A DNA stretch of 64,000 nucleotides from Phenylobacterium sp. SCN 70-31 (GTDB lineage: Bacteria; Pseudomonadota; Alphaproteobacteria; Caulobacterales; Caulobacteraceae): the NCBI RefSeq assembly GCF_001724605.1, contig NZ_MEEX01000006.1, positions 62,001-126,000 on the forward strand, in the 5' to 3' direction. The position numbers and the translations under genes are program-made. Below are positions 15 through 8,727 of the stretch, piece after piece. The notes under the pieces were generated by a model that worked only from the letters and a program-made list of their open reading frames with translations, was not told where the DNA came from and made no database searches. Position 1 is the stretch's first letter; every line of letters begins with the position of its first letter.

Positions 15-31
15 ATTCCATTATATGGAAC
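15..31. promoter_or_regulatory. IclR-like operator, copy 1
   Basis: Contains the perfect inverted repeat TTCCAT-TAT-ATGGAA. The 17-bp form matches the reverse complement of the site at 3102-3118 at 15 of 17 positions. It lies about 180 bp before the MFS carrier start. The size and symmetry resemble IclR-family operators; the regulator itself is not in the window. Confidence 0.55.
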
Positions 32-84
32 GATCCGCAAGCTGGAATTTTCCGGGCTGTCGCCCTGGGCCAGACGGTTCGAAT

Positions 85-101
85 GGTCCAAATAATGGAA
101 C
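85..101. promoter_or_regulatory. IclR-like operator, copy 2
   Basis: GGTCCAAATAATGGAAC keeps the TCCA/TGGA arms and the ATGGAAC half seen in copy 1, with a more degenerate left arm. It is about 110 bp before the MFS start, so copies 1 and 2 could act together on one promoter. Confidence 0.4.
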
Positions 102-209
102 ATAAGTTTGTAATTATGAACTGTGTTGACGAATTTGCGCCGTTTGAGGATGTTCGGGGAAAGAAGAGGACCTGCGGGCCAGCGGCGCGTGCGTTCAGGG
201 AGGGGAAGC

Positions 210-1616
210 TTGAGTATCAAAACCGCAGCGAACACGTCGGAGCCGCCTGCGTCCGCCACAGACTCCGCTGCCGGAGCAGGCTTCTCACCAGGCTACCAGC
301 GGCTTCTGGTGGGCGTGCTGGTGCTCGTCCTGATTCTGAATGTGCTCGACCGGCAGATCATCAACGTCCTCGCCGAACCGATAAAGCGGGACCTGGGCCT
401 TTCAGACACCCAGCTCGGCCTGGTGACGGGCCTGTTCTTCGCGATCTTCTACAATTCGGTCAGCATTCCGCTTGGCCGTATCGCCGACAATCTGCGCACC
501 AACCGGGTGCACCTGATCAGCGTCTGCCTGGCGTTCTGGTCCGGCATGACCGCGCTCTGCGGTACGGCCCAGACGTTCTGGCACCTGGTGCTGGCGCGGA
601 TCGGCGTGGCCACGGGCGAGGCGGGCTGCGTGCCGCCGGCGCACTCGCTCATCGCCGACACCGTGCCCAAGGCGAAGCTCGCGATGGCGCTGGCGATCTT
701 CGGGCTCGGCTCGCCGATCGGCGCGTTCCTGGGCAAATCCATCGGCGGGGTGTTGAACGATCTGTACGGGTGGCGCGCGGCCTTCTTCATTGTGGGGGTG
801 CCGGGCGTTCTCGTGGCCCTTCTCATGTGGCTCCTTCTGCGGGACCCGCGCAGGATGCGGACAGCGGAGTTGAGCCGCGCCGAGCCGAAGGTTCCGTTGC
901 GCGAGGTCATCGCCGAGATCCGCGGCTCGAAGGCCTTCGTGAACATCATCCTCGCGGTCGCCACCGCCGCACTGCTGGGCGCGGGCGGCAGCGTCTGGGG
1001 AATGATCCACTTCCTCCGCAACCACGAACTCTCCACCACCCAGGCCGGTCTTTGGCTGGGGGTGATCGGCGGCATCGGTGGGTCGCTCGGCACCTGGATC
1101 GGTGGGGTGCTGGCCGATCGGTGGGGCCAGAAGAATCCCCGCCACTACATGACGCCGCAGACGATCGGCCTGCTCTGCAACATCCCGTTCCTGTTCTTCG
1201 CCTGGTACACCCACAACTGGGTGCTGGCGATCGCCCTGCTGATCCTGCCGGACCTGTTCGACGATCTGTATTACGGCGGCACCTTCGCCTCGGTTCAGGG
1301 GCTCGTCAGCCGCCGTGTCCGGGCCACGGCGACGGCCAGCATGCTGTTCGTCACGACGCTGCTGGGGACCGGTTTGGGCGCGCTCTCGTTCGGTTTCGCC
1401 TCCGATCTCCTGAAGCCCTACGTGGGTGACAAGGAGAGCGTGCGCCTGGTCCTGATGGGATCGTCGTTCCTGTATGTGGTGCCGGCGTACTTCTTCTGGC
1501 GGGCCGGCTGCTTCCTCAAGGAAGAACTGGATCGCCGCGCCGCGATCGAGGCGAGCACCCTGGATACCGGGAAGGCGGAGTTCAACGCCCGCCTTCAGCA
1601 GGAAGACGGCGACTGA
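210..1616 (+). CDS. MFS transporter, spinster-like
   Basis: Twelve-helix major facilitator predicted to move a small organic acid across the inner membrane. An early DRQIINVLAEPIK-type segment and a GRIADN motif between helices 2 and 3 fit the spinster-like MFS group common in alphaproteobacterial catabolic clusters. The track opens at GTG 123, but TTG 210 follows a strong GGGAGGGG Shine-Dalgarno and removes a basic, non-conserved 29-residue extension, giving 468 residues. It is followed after 11 bp by the MatB-like ligase, so the two are probably cotranscribed. Two operator copies lie upstream. The substrate is unknown; a carboxylate is inferred from the neighbours. Confidence 0.85.
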   Translation: MSIKTAANTSEPPASATDSAAGAGFSPGYQRLLVGVLVLVLILNVLDRQIINVLAEPIKRDLGLSDTQLGLVTGLFFAIFYNSVSIPLGRIADNLRTNRVHLISVCLAFWSGMTALCGTAQTFWHLVLARIGVATGEAGCVPPAHSLIADTVPKAKLAMALAIFGLGSPIGAFLGKSIGGVLNDLYGWRAAFFIVGVPGVLVALLMWLLLRDPRRMRTAELSRAEPKVPLREVIAEIRGSKAFVNIILAVATAALLGAGGSVWGMIHFLRNHELSTTQAGLWLGVIGGIGGSLGTWIGGVLADRWGQKNPRHYMTPQTIGLLCNIPFLFFAWYTHNWVLAIALLILPDLFDDLYYGGTFASVQGLVSRRVRATATASMLFVTTLLGTGLGALSFGFASDLLKPYVGDKESVRLVLMGSSFLYVVPAYFFWRAGCFLKEELDRRAAIEASTLDTGKAEFNARLQQEDGD

Positions 1617-1627
1617 GCGCCGGGCCG

Positions 1628-3037
1628 ATGACGGGGAACTTCCACGACGACCTCCGCGCGGGCTTCGCGCCCGGACGGACCTGCTTCGCCCTGCCGGACG
1701 GGTCGGAGATCACCTACGGCGACCTCTCCGCCGCGGTGGACGGCGCGGCCGGACGGTTGCGCGCGGAGGGGGTGAGGCCCGGCGACCGTGTCGTTCTGGT
1801 CTGCGAGAAGAGCTGGGAGGTCGTGGCCGTCTATCTGGCTACGCTGAAGATCGGCGGCGTCTTCGTCCCGCTGAACCCGGCCTACACGCCGAGCGAACTG
1901 GACTACTTCCTCGGAGACTGCCGCCCGAGCGTGGTCGTCCGCGACGCGGAGGCTTTCGTCGCCGGCGCCGCTGGCCGGGGCGCCGGGGGGGTCGGCGACG
2001 CGTCCACCTGGGCCTGCTCTCCGACGCACGCCGCCTCGATCATCTACACCTCCGGCACGACGGGCCGACCGAAGGGCGCGATCCTGACCCACGGCGGCCT
2101 GCGGGCGAACGCGGAGGCGCTGCGGGCGGCGTGGGGGTTCTCGGCGTCGGACGTGCTGCTGCACGCGCTGCCCGTCTTCCACGTGCACGGGCTGTTCATC
2201 GCCCTCCACTGCGCCCTTCTGAGCGGGTCTCCGATGCTCTGGCTCCCGCGGTTCGACGAGGCCGAGGTGCTTGCCGGCCTGCGGCGCGCCACGGTGCTCA
2301 TGGGCGTGCCGACCTTCTACGTGCGCCTGCTGGCGAGGCCCGAGTTCACCCGAGACGTGGCGGCGGACGTGCGGCTCTTCGTGTCCGGCTCGGCGCCGTT
2401 GCCCCCCTCGGTCTTCGAGGCGTTCGAGGCCCGGACCGGCCAGCGGATCCTGGAGCGGTACGGGATGAGCGAGGCGCTGGTGATCGCCTCCAATCCGCTG
2501 GAGGGCGACAGGCTCGCCGGCAGCGTCGGGTTTCCCCTGGACGGCCTGCAGCTCCGGATCGCCGGCGGGGGAGACGTGGGGCCGGTCGAGGTGCGCGGCG
2601 ACAGCGTCTTCGTCGGCTATTGGGACCAGCCCGGAAAGACGGCCGATGCGTTCACGGCCGACGGCTTCTTCATCACCGGCGACGTGGGTCGCCTCGACGG
2701 GGACGGCCGCCTGTGGCTGTCGGGTCGGGAGAAGGATCTCATCATCACCGGCGGGCTGAACGTCTATCCGCCCGAGATCGAGCGCGTGATCGACAGCCTG
2801 CCCGGCGTCGCCGAATCCGCCGTGGTCGGCCTACCCCACAAGGACTTCGGGGAGGCCGTGACCGCCATCGTCTGCGGTGACGGGGATGAGGTGGAGATCA
2901 TCGCCGCCGCGCGCCGCAGCCTGGCTCCTTACAAGACGCCAAAGCGGGTGGTGTTCGTGGACACGCTCCCCCGCAACGCGATGGGCAAGGTCCAGAAGGC
3001 CCTTCTGCGGACGACGTTCTCCGACCTCTACGACTGA
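1628..3037 (+). CDS. MatB-like acyl-CoA synthetase (AMP-forming)
   Basis: A 469-residue ANL-superfamily enzyme that would activate a carboxylic acid through an acyl-AMP to its CoA thioester. Visible motifs are the P-loop YTSGTTGRPKGA (about residue 138), ERYGMSE, the hinge/TGD region ITGDVGRLDGDG, GREKDLIITGG and the C-terminal lysine in NAMGKVQKALL. Stretches such as ALPVFHVHGLF, LMGVPTFYVRLL and RLFVSGSAPL closely resemble rhizobial malonyl-CoA synthetase MatB, so a malonate-like dicarboxylate is the best guess. After ERYGMSE it has ALV where rhizobial MatB, as I recall it, has TNM, so specificity may differ. It sits 11 bp behind the MFS gene. Confidence 0.82.
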   Translation: MTGNFHDDLRAGFAPGRTCFALPDGSEITYGDLSAAVDGAAGRLRAEGVRPGDRVVLVCEKSWEVVAVYLATLKIGGVFVPLNPAYTPSELDYFLGDCRPSVVVRDAEAFVAGAAGRGAGGVGDASTWACSPTHAASIIYTSGTTGRPKGAILTHGGLRANAEALRAAWGFSASDVLLHALPVFHVHGLFIALHCALLSGSPMLWLPRFDEAEVLAGLRRATVLMGVPTFYVRLLARPEFTRDVAADVRLFVSGSAPLPPSVFEAFEARTGQRILERYGMSEALVIASNPLEGDRLAGSVGFPLDGLQLRIAGGGDVGPVEVRGDSVFVGYWDQPGKTADAFTADGFFITGDVGRLDGDGRLWLSGREKDLIITGGLNVYPPEIERVIDSLPGVAESAVVGLPHKDFGEAVTAIVCGDGDEVEIIAAARRSLAPYKTPKRVVFVDTLPRNAMGKVQKALLRTTFSDLYD

Positions 3038-3101
3038 TCCGGCGCGGCGTTTTCGGATGCGCTTGCGACTCCGAAGACTATGTGCATTATATCAAAAATA
3101 A

Positions 3102-3118
3102 GTTCCATATAATAGAAC
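3102..3118. promoter_or_regulatory. IclR-like operator, copy 3
   Basis: GTTCCATATAATAGAAC lies about 20 bp before the TonB receptor start. Its reverse complement differs from copy 1 at only two of 17 positions. Its place, in an AT-rich patch between matB and the receptor, suggests that the same regulator controls both transcription units. Confidence 0.55.
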
Positions 3119-3136: not shown

Positions 3137-6067
3137 ATGATGCGAGCGACGATCTGGTGCGGTGCTTCCGCCATGGCGCTGATGCTGGGCTTCGGTCCGG
3201 CCGCGGTGGCGCAGTCGTCGGGCGGTGAGGGCGAGGTGGCGGAGGTCGTGGTGACCGGGTCGCGGATCGCCCGCGCCGACTACACGGCGGAGAGCCCGAT
3301 CGTGAGCCTCACCGCCGAGGCGGTCGAACTTGCGGGGCCCCAGACGCTGGAGGCCACGTTCAACCAGATGCCCCAGTTCTCGGCGACCAACGCCAACTCC
3401 AGCAGCAGCCCCGCCCGCCAGGGGCGGAACAACGCCAACCTCCGGGGCCTCGGCATCCAGCGGACGCTGATCCTGCTCGACGGTCGCCGGATGCAGCCGT
3501 CGGACGCGCTGGGCGCGATCGACCTGAACTCCATCTCCACCTCGCTGGTCGAGAACGTCGAGGTCATCACGGGCGGGGCGTCCGCCGTCTATGGCTCGGA
3601 CGCGATCGCCGGCGTGGTCAATTTCCGTCTGAAGCGCAACTTCACGGGCGTCGAACTGGACGCCCAGTATGGCGTGACCGAGCGTGGCGACGCCGAGGCG
3701 GTGAACCTCGCCCTCAGCCTCGGCGGTCCGATCTCGGACGGCCGCGGGCACATCATGGCCTCGATGTCGTACTACGACCGCGGCGCGGTCTTCCGCGGCA
3801 CGCGGTCGTTCTTCGAACGCTCGGGCGTCGCCGGCGCGCTCCAGGGCGGCGCGATCGTGTCCGACGCCACAAACCTCCCGACCCAGGCCGCCCTCAACGG
3901 CGTGTTCCAGGGGATCTATGGATCCGCGACGCCTCCGGCCCGCAATGCGCCGTTCGCCGTGAACCTCGACGGCACGATCCTGACCACCCAGTCTCCGATC
4001 CTCAACAACCGGTTCCCCGAAGGCCAGCCCTACATTTTCGACGAGGGCCGGCTGGGCTTCCCGCAGGGCGCCACCTATCCCCTGCAACAGCCCCTCGAAC
4101 GCTGGACCGCCTTCGTTCGCGGTCGCTACGAACTCACCGAGAGCGTCGAAGCGTATATCCAGTTCAATCACATGCAGTACGGGGCGCAATACAGCCGCCA
4201 GGGCTGGTCCGCCGGGGCCTCCGAACCGCGTGGGTTGATCCCGGTGACCAACCCGTTCGTGCCGCAGGAACTGCGCACGATCATGGCGTCCCGGCCCAAT
4301 CCGACCGCACCGATGTTCTTCACCTACAACACCGGCCGCGTCGGACGCACGATCTACGACTTCAAGTACTCGATCGACGAGTTCCTGGTCGGCCTGACAG
4401 GCCGGGGGCCGATCCGCGACTGGCGATGGGACGTCTACGCCTCGTACGGCAGCACGGACGCGTCGGAGGTGACGTCGGGCTTCATCAACGTCGAGGCCTG
4501 GCAATCGCTGGTCAATGCGCCCGACGGCGGCGCCAGCGTCTGCGCGGGCGGGTTCAACCCCTTCCTGCCGGAATCGCTCTCGGACACCGACCCGAAGTGC
4601 TTCGACTATCTGAACCGGGTCCTGCAGGAGCGCACGCAGTTCGAGCAGCAGGTCGTCGAAGGCACGATGCAGGGCGGACTGTTCGACCTGCCCGCCGGCG
4701 AACTGCGCTTCGCGGTGGGCGGCACCTACCGCCGGTCCACCTACGACTATCAGCCCGACGAGCAGCGGGTGCGCCAGACCGTGTGGCCCAACCAGCCGAC
4801 GGGCCGGGCCGGCGGCGCCTACGAAGTCTATGAGCTGTTCGGCGAGGTGTTCGTCCCGCTGATCCGCGATCAGCCTTTCATCCGGCACCTGAACGCCGAC
4901 GTCGCCTACCGCTTCTCGGACTACAGTTCGGTGGGAGCGGTCCACACCTACAAGGGCAGCCTCGACTGGGGCGTGATCGACAGCGTCCGGTTGCGCGGCA
5001 GCTATCAGCGGGCGATCCGCGCGCCCAGCCTGGGCGAACTGTACGCACCTCCCGAGCGCGCCTCCGCCGGCCTTGGCTCGACGAGCGTGGGCGGCGGTGA
5101 TCCCTGCGCCTCCAACTCGCGCTGGCGCGATCCCGCCCGCAACCCGGACCACGCCCGCGTGCGCCAGCTCTGCCTCGCCCAAGGCGTGCCGGATGTCGTC
5201 ATCGACCTCCTGCGCTTCGGGGGCAGCTCGGTCAGCGGCGTTGCGGCCGGCAACACCAACCTCCGCGAGGAGACGGCCGACACCTACACCGCGGGCGTGG
5301 TGTGGCAGAGCACGTTCGACAGCCCCTGGCTGAGACGCCTCCAAGTGTCGCTCGACTACTACAATATCCAGGTCGAGGATGCGGTCGGCGTGATCACGGC
5401 GCAGGTCGGCGTGCAGCGTTGCTTCAACACCGACGGAAGCTCAAACCCGAACTTCGACGTCAACAACTTCTTCTGCCAGCTCACGGATCGGCGCGTGGAC
5501 GGCGGCATCGAGACCCAGCGCCAGCCCACCCTCAACCTGGCTTCCTACGAGGTCGCCGGCGTGGACCTGCAACTGGACTGGCGCGGTGAACTGGCGGATC
5601 TCGGCGTCGGTGACGTGGGGGCGCTGAGCTTCAATCTCATCGTTTCCTATCTCGACAAGTACAAGATCCAGAACACCGTGGACTCCCCGTTCCTCAACTT
5701 CGCGGGAACGATCGGGAACAGCCAGATCGATCCGGGCGCCATCGCGTTCCCGGAATGGAAGGTGTCGGCGTCGCTGACCTGGGAGTATGGCCCGCTTTCG
5801 CTGACCGGCCGCTACCGGTGGTTCGATTCCATGACCCATTCGGCCGATGTCGGTTCGCCCACGCCCAGCCAGCCCGGTGTGAAGACCCGAAGCTATGCGG
5901 ACCTCGTCGCCACCTGGTCGTATGACGAAAAGACCCAGTTCCGCGCCGGGGTCCTCAACGTCTTCGACACCCAGCCGCCGGTCTGGACGGGGAACGGGAG
6001 CACCGACCTCGGCCTCTACGACCTCCTCCAGCGCCGGTACTACGTGGGCCTGAAGAAGTCCTTCTAG
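3137..6067 (+). CDS. TonB-dependent outer-membrane receptor
   Basis: A 976-residue receptor. It has a signal peptide (cleavage near AVAQSS, about residue 26) and then a plug domain with EVVVTGSRIAR at the TonB-box position, NLRGLGIQRTLILLDGRR and ASAVYGSDAIAGVVNF. A large beta-barrel follows and ends in the terminal-Phe signature RRYYVGLKKSF. The long barrel and the VVTGSRI start resemble the large Caulobacterales/Sphingomonad receptors for organic substrates rather than siderophore receptors. The start sits behind GGGGAGG. The operator just upstream and the MFS/ligase/MmgE neighbours suggest import of the acid handled by this cluster. Confidence 0.93.
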   Translation: MMRATIWCGASAMALMLGFGPAAVAQSSGGEGEVAEVVVTGSRIARADYTAESPIVSLTAEAVELAGPQTLEATFNQMPQFSATNANSSSSPARQGRNNANLRGLGIQRTLILLDGRRMQPSDALGAIDLNSISTSLVENVEVITGGASAVYGSDAIAGVVNFRLKRNFTGVELDAQYGVTERGDAEAVNLALSLGGPISDGRGHIMASMSYYDRGAVFRGTRSFFERSGVAGALQGGAIVSDATNLPTQAALNGVFQGIYGSATPPARNAPFAVNLDGTILTTQSPILNNRFPEGQPYIFDEGRLGFPQGATYPLQQPLERWTAFVRGRYELTESVEAYIQFNHMQYGAQYSRQGWSAGASEPRGLIPVTNPFVPQELRTIMASRPNPTAPMFFTYNTGRVGRTIYDFKYSIDEFLVGLTGRGPIRDWRWDVYASYGSTDASEVTSGFINVEAWQSLVNAPDGGASVCAGGFNPFLPESLSDTDPKCFDYLNRVLQERTQFEQQVVEGTMQGGLFDLPAGELRFAVGGTYRRSTYDYQPDEQRVRQTVWPNQPTGRAGGAYEVYELFGEVFVPLIRDQPFIRHLNADVAYRFSDYSSVGAVHTYKGSLDWGVIDSVRLRGSYQRAIRAPSLGELYAPPERASAGLGSTSVGGGDPCASNSRWRDPARNPDHARVRQLCLAQGVPDVVIDLLRFGGSSVSGVAAGNTNLREETADTYTAGVVWQSTFDSPWLRRLQVSLDYYNIQVEDAVGVITAQVGVQRCFNTDGSSNPNFDVNNFFCQLTDRRVDGGIETQRQPTLNLASYEVAGVDLQLDWRGELADLGVGDVGALSFNLIVSYLDKYKIQNTVDSPFLNFAGTIGNSQIDPGAIAFPEWKVSASLTWEYGPLSLTGRYRWFDSMTHSADVGSPTPSQPGVKTRSYADLVATWSYDEKTQFRAGVLNVFDTQPPVWTGNGSTDLGLYDLLQRRYYVGLKKSF

Positions 6068-6111
6068 CCCGCTTCCGACGAGGTCACCCCGCTCCTCCCG
6101 GGGATACTCAC

Positions 6112-6142
6112 GGACCAGGGCGCTGGGGGTGCGTCCTGGTCC
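6112..6142 (+). terminator. Hairpin between receptor and mmgE-like gene
   Basis: An 8-bp perfect stem, GGACCAGG/CCTGGTCC, around a 15-nt loop, 45 bp after the receptor stop and followed by AGCTTTC. The weak T-run suggests an attenuator or mRNA-stabilising stem that tapers expression into the next gene rather than a strong terminator. Confidence 0.4.
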
Positions 6143-6188: not shown

Positions 6189-7631
6189 ATGCGCGTCCAG
6201 TCAGGTGTGGGGCCGATCGAGGATGATGGGGCGGCGGGGGGAGTGTGGCTGACGCCATCCGTCACGGAACCTGTGGCGCGGTTCATCTCGGGCAGTCCGG
6301 AGGCGGAGATCTCCTCGGAGTTCAGGGATCTCGCCAAGCGACACATCCTCGACACCCTGGCCTCGATCGTCGCCTGCCGCGATCTGGAACCGTCCGTCCT
6401 GGCCCGGACCTTTGCGCTGGAGCAGAGCGGCGACGCCCGCCGCAACGCCGTCACCATCCTCGGCACGAGCGAGAAGGCCGCGCTGATCGATGCGGTCTTC
6501 GCCAGCGCGATGGCGGGGCACGGGGCCGAGATCAACGATTTCATCCCCTCGTCGTTCGTGCAGCCCGGACCTTCGATCGTCAGCGCCGCCTTGGCGCTCG
6601 CGGAGCTCCGCGGCGGCGGCGGCGACGCGGTGGTGCGCGCGGTGGTGACCGGCTACGAACTGGCCGGACGCATTCCAAGGGCGCTGGGAATCGACAACCT
6701 CCGGCGCTTCAACATCGCCAATCACGGCATTGGACCGGTGTTCGGCGTGGCCGCCGCGGCCGCATCCATGATGCGGCTGCCCGAAGACCGGATCGGCGAC
6801 CTGCTCTCGTACTGCGTCCAGCAGGCCTCGGGGTGCTATCAGTGGCTCCTCGACGTCGAGCACATCGAGAAGTCCTTCGTCTTCGCCGGTCTGGGAGCCA
6901 GGGCCGGCCTGCAGGCGGCGCTGTTCACCGAGGCCGGCTTCCGCGGCGTCCGCAAGGCTCTCGATCATCCGGCGGGCTGGATGGGATCGGCGACCTTCAC
7001 CGGACCGGGGTCCGACGCCGACCGCAACTATCTCATAGAGGATCTGGGCGTCCGCTCCGAACTGCCGCTGACGGCCTACAAGCGCTTCCCGGTCGGCGGG
7101 CCGACCCAGCCGGCGGTCCAGGGGATCCTCGAACTGCTCCCGGAGGTGGATGTCGCCGACGTCGAGCGCATTCGCATCGAGATGCCGGGCCGCTGGGAGG
7201 CGTTCCGCGACGCCGAGATGCCGGCCCTGAATCTGCGCTATCTGATGGCCATCATCCTGCTGGACGGCGAACTCGACTTCGTGGGGGCCCAGTCGCTCGA
7301 ACGCATGCACGGCGACGCCGCGGTCCGGGCGCTGATGGAGCGTGTCGAGGTCGTCCACGATCCCGAGCAGGAGCATGCGCCCGGAGAGGCCCGCCGCGAG
7401 TCGGCCCGGGTGAGCGTCCGCCACGCCTCGGGACGGACGCTCGAGATTTTCGTGCCCTATGTGGTCGGGTTCCCTTCGCATCCCATGAGCCGGGGCGAGG
7501 TCGAGGCCAAGGCCCTCGAACTTCTCTCCCGGCCTCTCGGACGTGGGAAGGCCGAAGCGATCGTCGCGGCGGTGCGCGACCTGGAGGCCGCGACCGAGGT
7601 TTCCAGCCTGATCGCTCTGATCTCCCGCTGA
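6189..7631 (+). CDS. MmgE/PrpD family protein
   Basis: A 480-residue member of the MmgE/PrpD family, which includes 2-methylcitrate dehydratase, cis-aconitate decarboxylase and iminodisuccinate epimerase. Typical segments are RDLAKRHILDTLASIVAC near the N-terminus, GHGAEINDF, NIANHGIGPVFGVAAAAA and YKRFPVGGPTQPAVQGI, followed by the smaller C-terminal domain. The track begins at GTG 6129; ATG 6189 has a GGAG six bases upstream and is preferred. It lies downstream of the TonB receptor and is probably the intracellular enzyme of this cluster. The exact reaction cannot be read from sequence. Confidence 0.85.
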   Translation: MRVQSGVGPIEDDGAAGGVWLTPSVTEPVARFISGSPEAEISSEFRDLAKRHILDTLASIVACRDLEPSVLARTFALEQSGDARRNAVTILGTSEKAALIDAVFASAMAGHGAEINDFIPSSFVQPGPSIVSAALALAELRGGGGDAVVRAVVTGYELAGRIPRALGIDNLRRFNIANHGIGPVFGVAAAAASMMRLPEDRIGDLLSYCVQQASGCYQWLLDVEHIEKSFVFAGLGARAGLQAALFTEAGFRGVRKALDHPAGWMGSATFTGPGSDADRNYLIEDLGVRSELPLTAYKRFPVGGPTQPAVQGILELLPEVDVADVERIRIEMPGRWEAFRDAEMPALNLRYLMAIILLDGELDFVGAQSLERMHGDAAVRALMERVEVVHDPEQEHAPGEARRESARVSVRHASGRTLEIFVPYVVGFPSHPMSRGEVEAKALELLSRPLGRGKAEAIVAAVRDLEAATEVSSLIALISR

Positions 7632-7643
7632 CCCGCCGTCGGA

Positions 7644-7669
7644 TCGACCGGCCCTCGCAGGCCGGTCGA
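7644..7669 (+). terminator. Strong hairpin after mmgE-like gene
   Basis: A perfect 10-bp stem, TCGACCGGCC/GGCCGGTCGA, with a 6-nt loop, 12 bp after the stop codon. There is no T-run, so it may be a Rho-assisted terminator or an mRNA 3' end stabiliser closing the catabolic cluster. Confidence 0.45.
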
Positions 7670-7765
7670 GAGGCGTCGTCGGCAGCGGTGAGGGGGGTGG
7701 CCACTTCGCCGCCGGCGGGACTCATCAAGAAGAGAGGCCCGCAATGCGTGGCGACAACAGTTGCA

Positions 7766-7949
7766 TGAACTCCCCAACCAGCGCCAAGCTCAGCCGCCTG
7801 GCCTTCCTGGCTCGCGATCCGCAGTGGCGAACTTGGATGGCGAGCAACCCGCGTGTCTGAAGCTACGAATGTTGCTCAAGGCAGAGCTGCCGCTGGCGTG
7901 GGCCGATCGGCGTGCGTGGTTTGAGCGGATGCGCGCTGCCGCCGGCTGA
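7766..7949 (+). pseudogene. Serine recombinase C-terminal remnant (copy A)
   Basis: After two compensating one-base indels relative to copy B, the reading ends in LLKAELPLAWADRRAWFERM and a TGA. This resembles the extreme C-terminus of long zinc-ribbon serine recombinases (an APD...GxQP...LPLxWxxQR pattern). No N-terminal catalytic domain is present in the window, so it is a fragment. Confidence 0.45.
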
Positions 7950-8219
7950 TTCTTACTGAGAGCTATTTCCATGCACGGCTCGGAGGCGTCTCCGAGTCGT
8001 CTCTCATGGTTTGCCCCGCTGTTATCTCCCCGTTCTCAGGGGGAAGCCGTCGCGGTCTCCAGGTCGCGGAGAATGAGCCCGATGTCGGGGATGTTTGGGG
8101 GCCATTTGAGAGGCGCCGCATATGGGCGGGTGACGGAACGCGTGTCGTCAAAGCCCCGAAAGTCGAGCCTTTCTCCGGGCCCGATGCCGCAGAGACGGCT
8201 TTGGGTGACTGCGTGGCGG
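7766..8219. repeat. Long direct repeat, copy A
   Basis: About 454 bp and, by eye, about nine bases in ten identical to 9131-9574. Differences include single-base indels and a block around 8115-8130 (CATATGGGCGGG) missing from copy B. Both copies end in GACTGCGTGGCGG; in copy B this runs into the 3' end of the tRNA-Ser gene. The repeat carries the decayed recombinase tail. Confidence 0.8.
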
Positions 8220-8259
8220 TGGAAGCAGTCAAGAGACGAACCGTCTCCGACGGGTCCTG

Positions 8260-8727
8260 CTATGCGAGCGGGATCAGTTTCGTGCGGATGAAATCGATGC
8301 GGCCAAGAAGATTCTCGGCGTGCTCCCGGGTGGGAGCGACCGGAATCGGATAGCTGTCCGCGAGATCGCGGCCCGCCAGGACGTTGTCGGCCCAATCCTG
8401 GGCGATGGCGCAGTACAGTTCCAGCGCAAGAGCCGGCGTCGGCGTGTCGTCCGTTTCGAAGTGCATCGACGGCAGATTGCCGACCACGACCCAGCGCTCG
8501 GCGTCTTCGGGTCTCGCGCCAGGTTCACGCCGGGCAAGGAAGAGCGAGATGACGGGAGCGACGCCGAAGGCGAGAACGAGATCTGCGATGGGCGGGTTCC
8601 ACCTGTATGTATGCAGATAGCGCCAAGCCTCGGCTCGCAGCACTTCCAGCTGGTCGAGCTCCTCCTTGCCCTCGTAGTCGAGATTTTCACCCGTCGGAAA
8701 CGAGGAGGTGTCGATCAGCTGGCTCAT
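8260..8727 (-). CDS. Hypothetical protein, orphan between repeats
   Basis: A 155-residue acidic, soluble protein I do not recognise. The composition is convincingly coding, with alternating hydrophobic patches such as PPIADLVLAFGVAPVISLFLARR and a tail LLGRIDFIRTKLIPLA. There is no signal peptide, and the strong hydrophobic stretches are too short for a clear membrane span. The ATG at 8727 has only a weak upstream GGAAG. It is the only intact gene between the two long direct repeats, so it may be cargo left from the element that used the tRNA-Ser site. Confidence 0.6.
   Translation of the reverse strand: MSQLIDTSSFPTGENLDYEGKEELDQLEVLRAEAWRYLHTYRWNPPIADLVLAFGVAPVISLFLARREPGARPEDAERWVVVGNLPSMHFETDDTPTPALALELYCAIAQDWADNVLAGRDLADSYPIPVAPTREHAENLLGRIDFIRTKLIPLA

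Follow-up and report, generated by a model that had tools for sequence, protein, structure and literature searches.

The genes at the left end of the window (the whole 64,000-nt stretch of DNA analyzed here, C6:62001-126000 of a 4.89 Mb genome in 61 contigs) and those just outside it very probably form one small regulon, in which an autoregulated, locally encoded IclR-type protein controls a TonB-dependent receptor, hydrolases, an MFS carrier, a malonyl-CoA synthetase (MatB) and a decarboxylase, and a pathway metabolite releases all four transcription units. The cluster spans approximately 14 kb and comprises, in order, a rightward esterase operon, a leftward iclR, a rightward MFS-matB unit and a rightward TonB receptor-MmgE/PrpD unit, each with one predicted operator. 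Uptake, ester cleavage and malonate breakdown appear to be tied into one switchable circuit, although binding, repression, effector and substrate are all inferred from sequence. An IclR dimer (or tetramer) would bind the four sites, one before each unit. The receptor would take an ester-bearing compound into the periplasm for cleavage by secreted hydrolases, after which the MFS carrier would import the released diacid, MatB would convert it to malonyl-CoA and the decarboxylase would turn malonyl-CoA into acetyl-CoA. A pathway metabolite would free IclR from the DNA, switching on all four units together.

Gene content is consistent with this scheme. The MFS carrier (window positions 210-1616, forward strand; MFS_1, 157 bits) starts at a TTG codon with AGGGAGGGG in front, although translation may begin further upstream, at GTG 123, and has a 65% identical homologue in the cluster of a related genome (G253). 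It is followed by matB (1628-3037, forward), which scores 607 bits against the malonyl-CoA synthase family NF005702 (cut-off 558) and has malonyl-CoA synthetase 4FUQ as its best PDB match (E 5e-131). The TonB-dependent outer-membrane receptor (3137-6067, forward; Plug and TonB beta-barrel domains) has orthologues of 62-67% identity beside the same IclR in relatives. Behind it lies an MmgE/PrpD-family gene (6189-7631, forward; MmgE_PrpD_N/C), a conserved part of the cluster, whose nearest solved relatives, cis-aconitate decarboxylase (IRG1) and IDS epimerase, are both remote. A strong GC-rich hairpin (GGACCAGGGCGC/GCGTCCTGGTCC, 6098-6131), followed by a weak T run, separates these last two genes and may attenuate read-through. 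The esterase operon, outside the window, encodes a type-B carboxylesterase, two SxxK-type serine hydrolases (Pfam Beta-lactamase) and a malonyl-CoA decarboxylase (MCD; 295 bits), the last encoded only once in the genome. The esterase and the two serine hydrolases each carry an apparent N-terminal secretion signal (read from the sequence), which makes receptor uptake followed by periplasmic hydrolysis the simplest path.

Three of the four operators lie in the window, and all three 17-mers read exactly as given in the preliminary description, including the 15/17 identity between copy 1 and the reverse complement of copy 3 and the perfect TTCCAT/ATGGAA arms of copy 1. Copy 1 (15-31) reads ATTCCATTATATGGAAC on the forward strand and GTTCCATATAATGGAAT toward iclR, on the minus strand. 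Copy 2 (85-101, forward, GGTCCAAATAATGGAAC) precedes MFS-matB, and copy 3 (3102-3118, forward, GTTCCATATAATAGAAC) is centered at -27 from the receptor start. The earlier assignment of one site to the receptor stands, whereas that of two sites to MFS-matB is better revised. Copy 1 is better given to iclR because its center is at -39 from the start codon of the divergent iclR, and most likely copy 1 serves iclR and copy 2 MFS-matB. In copy 2, one side is degenerate, and the center lies at -117 from TTG 210, which would be unusually far if this is the true start, or at -30 from the alternative GTG 123. The fourth copy, GTTCCAAATAACAGAAC, lies outside the window (C6:55790-55806, L009:3790-3806), centered 24 nt before the esterase operon. 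A TTGACG-17-GATTAT promoter and site 4 also flank a weak tandem operator-like copy, GGACCCAATAATGGACT (L009:3770-3786, C6:55770-55786), which is spaced 20 nt from site 4, center to center.

The proposed regulator was found where the preliminary description had predicted an IclR gene, to the left of base 1. It is encoded on the minus strand (C6:61241-61984, L009:9241-9984; 247 aa), its start codon lies 17 nt left of the window, and it contains HTH_IclR (62.6 bits, cut-off 22) and IclR_C (79.4 bits, cut-off 24) domains. Among NCBIfam profiles, BhcR and PcaR/PcaU/PobR are nearest, but all characterized subfamilies compared (BhcR, PcaR/PcaU/PobR, KdgR, AllR and IclR) fell far below their curated cut-offs (e.g., 116 against 350 for BhcR). 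With iclR adjacent and the motif exclusive to the cluster, the idea of one regulator over both the carrier/ligase and receptor units is supported, and the case for the predicted regulator-operator link is strong.

IclR proteins include both repressors and activators. Control by repression is the more probable mode here, since the sites overlap a -10-like core or sit just downstream of a promoter. TATAAT-like cores in all four sites face the downstream gene (TATAAT 6/6, TATAAT 6/6, AATAAT 5/6 and AATAAC 4/6), and those of copies 1 and 3 contain TATAAT itself. In the esterase operon, the sole sigma-70-like promoter (TTGACG-17-GATTAT, L009:3741-3769) lies just upstream of the operator, an arrangement that, together with the tandem copy at 20 nt (18-22 nt in the published survey discussed below), fits repression. 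Alternatively, the local IclR could bind the same operators as a PobR/PcaU-like activator that recruits polymerase when substrate is present, a possible though distinctly less likely reading. It would account for the lack of any recognizable good -35 hexamer for the -10-like cores at copies 1-3, and a TTGACG-17-GATGTT element at 127-155, downstream of copy 2, would place that copy upstream of the MFS promoter; BhcR and PcaR/PcaU/PobR are also the nearest profiles, though far below cut-off. Against activation are the TATAAT hexamers inside copies 1 and 3 and the esterase promoter upstream of its operator with the weak tandem site between them, which is repressor geometry. A local repressor thus remains the preferred reading.

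The preliminary description had proposed a genome-wide motif search, with random occurrence at similar frequency counting against the idea. The search showed instead that the motif is confined to the cluster at ≤2 mismatches: a pattern built from copies 1 and 3, RTTCYATTATATGGAAC, matched four places, all inside C6:55790-65118. Because copy 4 was not used in building the pattern and was new relative to that description, its recovery is an out-of-sample confirmation. Two further places, both outside the cluster, matched at 3 mismatches and were rejected as regulon members: C35:3320 adjoins PepSY/GntR genes, and C3:198334 adjoins an FAA-hydrolase gene that has two other IclR-type genes in its surroundings. 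The latter 17-mer (C3:198334-198350, L081:9334-9350) lies directly upstream of the FAA-hydrolase gene, the two IclR-type genes are at L081:278-1150 and 7497-8315, and the site is possibly the operator of an IclR paralogue. A related Caulobacteraceae locus (L073) has gene families in common with this region and carries GTTCCATATTATGGAAC. Across the family, GTTCCATTATWTGGAAC was found at ≤1 mismatch in only 7 of 299 genomes, in three of which the site lies beside this IclR or its homologue.

Conservation in relatives also links the sites to the regulator. In 25 Caulobacteraceae loci (477 kb), the published consensus of the operator class discussed below matched 4, 17 and 16 sites at 0, 1 and 2 mismatches, where 0, 0 and 1.0 were expected (21 observed against about 0 expected at 0-1 mismatch), and nearly all of these sites precede a gene for IclR, an esterase, a serine hydrolase, MmgE or a TonB receptor. 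In the 300 nt upstream, a site with ≤2 mismatches is present for 29 and absent for nine of the 38 IclR orthologues, among which one gene appears twice through a contig-end overlap. Operators were also found before the esterase (L054-L056, L063-L065 and L098) and before the TonB receptor in many loci (including L053-L058, L062, L067, L070, L077, L079, L080 and L099), with some of these counted at 3 mismatches. Among 101 Phenylobacterium genomes, IclR orthologues occur in 23 and MmgE/PrpD orthologues in 23, with both in 20 (Fisher p 4e-15, a statistic that ignores relatedness); the MmgE/PrpD proteins alongside IclR in these 20 genomes are orthologues of 61-71% identity. In another family of the order, one locus (L105) combines esterase homologues, both serine hydrolases, MmgE, MFS and IclR with A-type sites (defined below). 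Exceptions include three genomes (L074-L076) with near-perfect 17-mers and no IclR detected nearby, and one genome (G220) with MmgE and no IclR detected, where the contig ends at the expected IclR position. In L075 and L076, the 17-mer adjoins related HTH_3 proteins.

It is improbable that the sites belong to another regulator, such as the paralogous IclR at C3:189362, and that the neighboring IclR is incidental. The genome does encode further IclR-type genes, and two of them are found in the region of the 3-mismatch site at C3:198334, but the best matches are all beside the local IclR, site and regulator are kept together in orthologous loci, and other IclR-type genes considered as owners (at C34, C4, C1, C18 and C3) have no such operator upstream (0/5). 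Chance, i.e., AT-rich -10 regions with a palindromic look, is least likely of all, for while the cores resemble TATAAT and sit at expected promoter positions, dinucleotide shuffling of the window gave a mean of 0.01 matches per shuffle (100 shuffles, ≤3 mismatches to GTTCCATTATATGGAAC, which in the real window matches the three known copies only), neither the reversed RTTCYATTATATGGAAC pattern in the whole genome nor a 2 Mb order-3 Markov simulation trained on it (≤3 mismatches) gave any match, and the four sites at ≤2 mismatches are exclusive to the cluster, with the fourth out of sample and the motif conserved in related loci.

The recognition helix of the IclR orthologues, KS-(N/T)-x-HR, is conserved, and its variable residue 37 covaries with one operator letter. 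Regulators with Asn have GTTCCA-type half-sites (30 A : 4 G), whereas those with Thr favor GTTCCG-type half-sites (17 A : 41 G). These counts are large, but on the tree the Asn/Thr change happened only once (99/99 support), so the covariation counts once and was not accepted as strong support. A contrast within one target helps somewhat: the esterase operator (like that of the receptor) is A-type in our genome, which has an Asn-type regulator, whereas the esterase operators in L054-L056, with Thr-type regulators, are G-type. Direct contact between residue 37 and the A/G base would be a guess, and this residue-base pair is absent from published IclR-DNA contacts.

The locus may also have a composite origin. 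Among relatives with a long contig, G253 (L053/L054) is the closest. It carries two neighboring modules, one Thr-type (hydrolase-esterase / IclR / receptor-MmgE) and one Asn-type (IclR / AMP ligase-receptor-MFS), and judging by gene content our locus looks like two such modules merged under one Asn-type regulator. With ends that overlap by about 21.7 kb, the G253 contig (C2, 371 kb) is probably a circular replicon, and the cluster copies at its two ends (L053 and L054) are one locus. A second IclR-family gene with a KSTVQR helix was observed behind MmgE/PrpD in Thr-type modules (L057:3718-4464, with equivalents in L054, L056, L058, L059 and L061) and was not found at our locus.

Malonate is likely the acid handled here, because MatB and MCD share a regulator. 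No MCD hits were obtained in relatives carrying the core module, hence the original substrate may differ from malonate. More tentatively, the cluster could represent an undescribed TonB-fed pathway for malonate-bearing esters (e.g., malonylated plant products) under an IclR of a new subgroup, whose operator letters changed with Asn37/Thr37 and of which one regulator type took over, in our genome, promoters that have operators of the other type in other loci. No account of this regulon was found in the literature searched. The analysis assigns a specific predicted operator to an uncharacterized IclR subgroup that is conserved across Caulobacteraceae and occurs in one or more further families of the order, and joins orphan TonB receptors, type-B carboxylesterases, class-C-like serine hydrolases and an MmgE/PrpD enzyme in one putative pathway. 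The substrate of that pathway can be sought via the compound that releases the regulator, and the specificity of IclR-DNA recognition could be tested simply through the Asn/Thr-A/G pattern.

The 17-mers are a predicted new member of a published operator class, the GTT-11-AAC subgroup of IclR group 1, whose sites are given in the text of the survey as a 17-bp palindrome, GTTYCRYW3RYGRAAC, mostly at -20 to -80 from the start codon, in tandem at 18-22 nt spacing, and in small, local regulons that include the regulator's neighbors (Suvorova and Gelfand 2021, PMC8222616). The likeness extends to palindrome, positions and local regulon, and to the weak tandem site 20 nt off at the esterase operon. 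The consensus of our sites, GTTCCATATAATGGAAC, matches the survey's consensus in full, the individual copies have 1, 1, 2 and 2 mismatches (copy 2, with 2 mismatches, is the weakest), and centers at -24, -39 and -27 fall inside the published range, with copy 2 at -117 or -30. At ≤2 mismatches, the survey's consensus matched 14 places in the genome against 9 for its reversed control, barely above it, so that what supports copies 2 and 4 is their resemblance to copies 1 and 3 together with their position, and not the family consensus alone. Malonate and carboxylesterase are not mentioned in the main text of the survey (PMC8222616). Another 1-mismatch match to the consensus, GCTTCGCATTGTGGAAC, was observed elsewhere in the genome (G000:C26:79553-79569).

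The gene cluster of the fumonisin esterase FumD comprises a TonB receptor, an MFS permease and a regulator. FumD (PDB 8S6D) belongs to the same type-B carboxylesterase family as the esterase described here (E 3e-60), but is far from its best match, and with better matches available a fumonisin-type function was rejected. The rhizobial matRABC malonate locus likewise unites malonyl-CoA decarboxylase, malonyl-CoA synthetase, a carrier and a local regulator (PMC5237526), and synthetase and decarboxylase also share one locus here, as in matABC-type systems. However, its regulator MatR is GntR-type (PMC5237526), whereas ours is an IclR, and the carrier of our matB operon belongs to MFS_1 rather than to the MatC-type dicarboxylate carriers. 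Our locus further adds a TonB receptor, secreted ester hydrolases and MmgE/PrpD. Operator and regulator are thus of a familiar kind, while the combination of genes differs from that of rhizobial matRABC.
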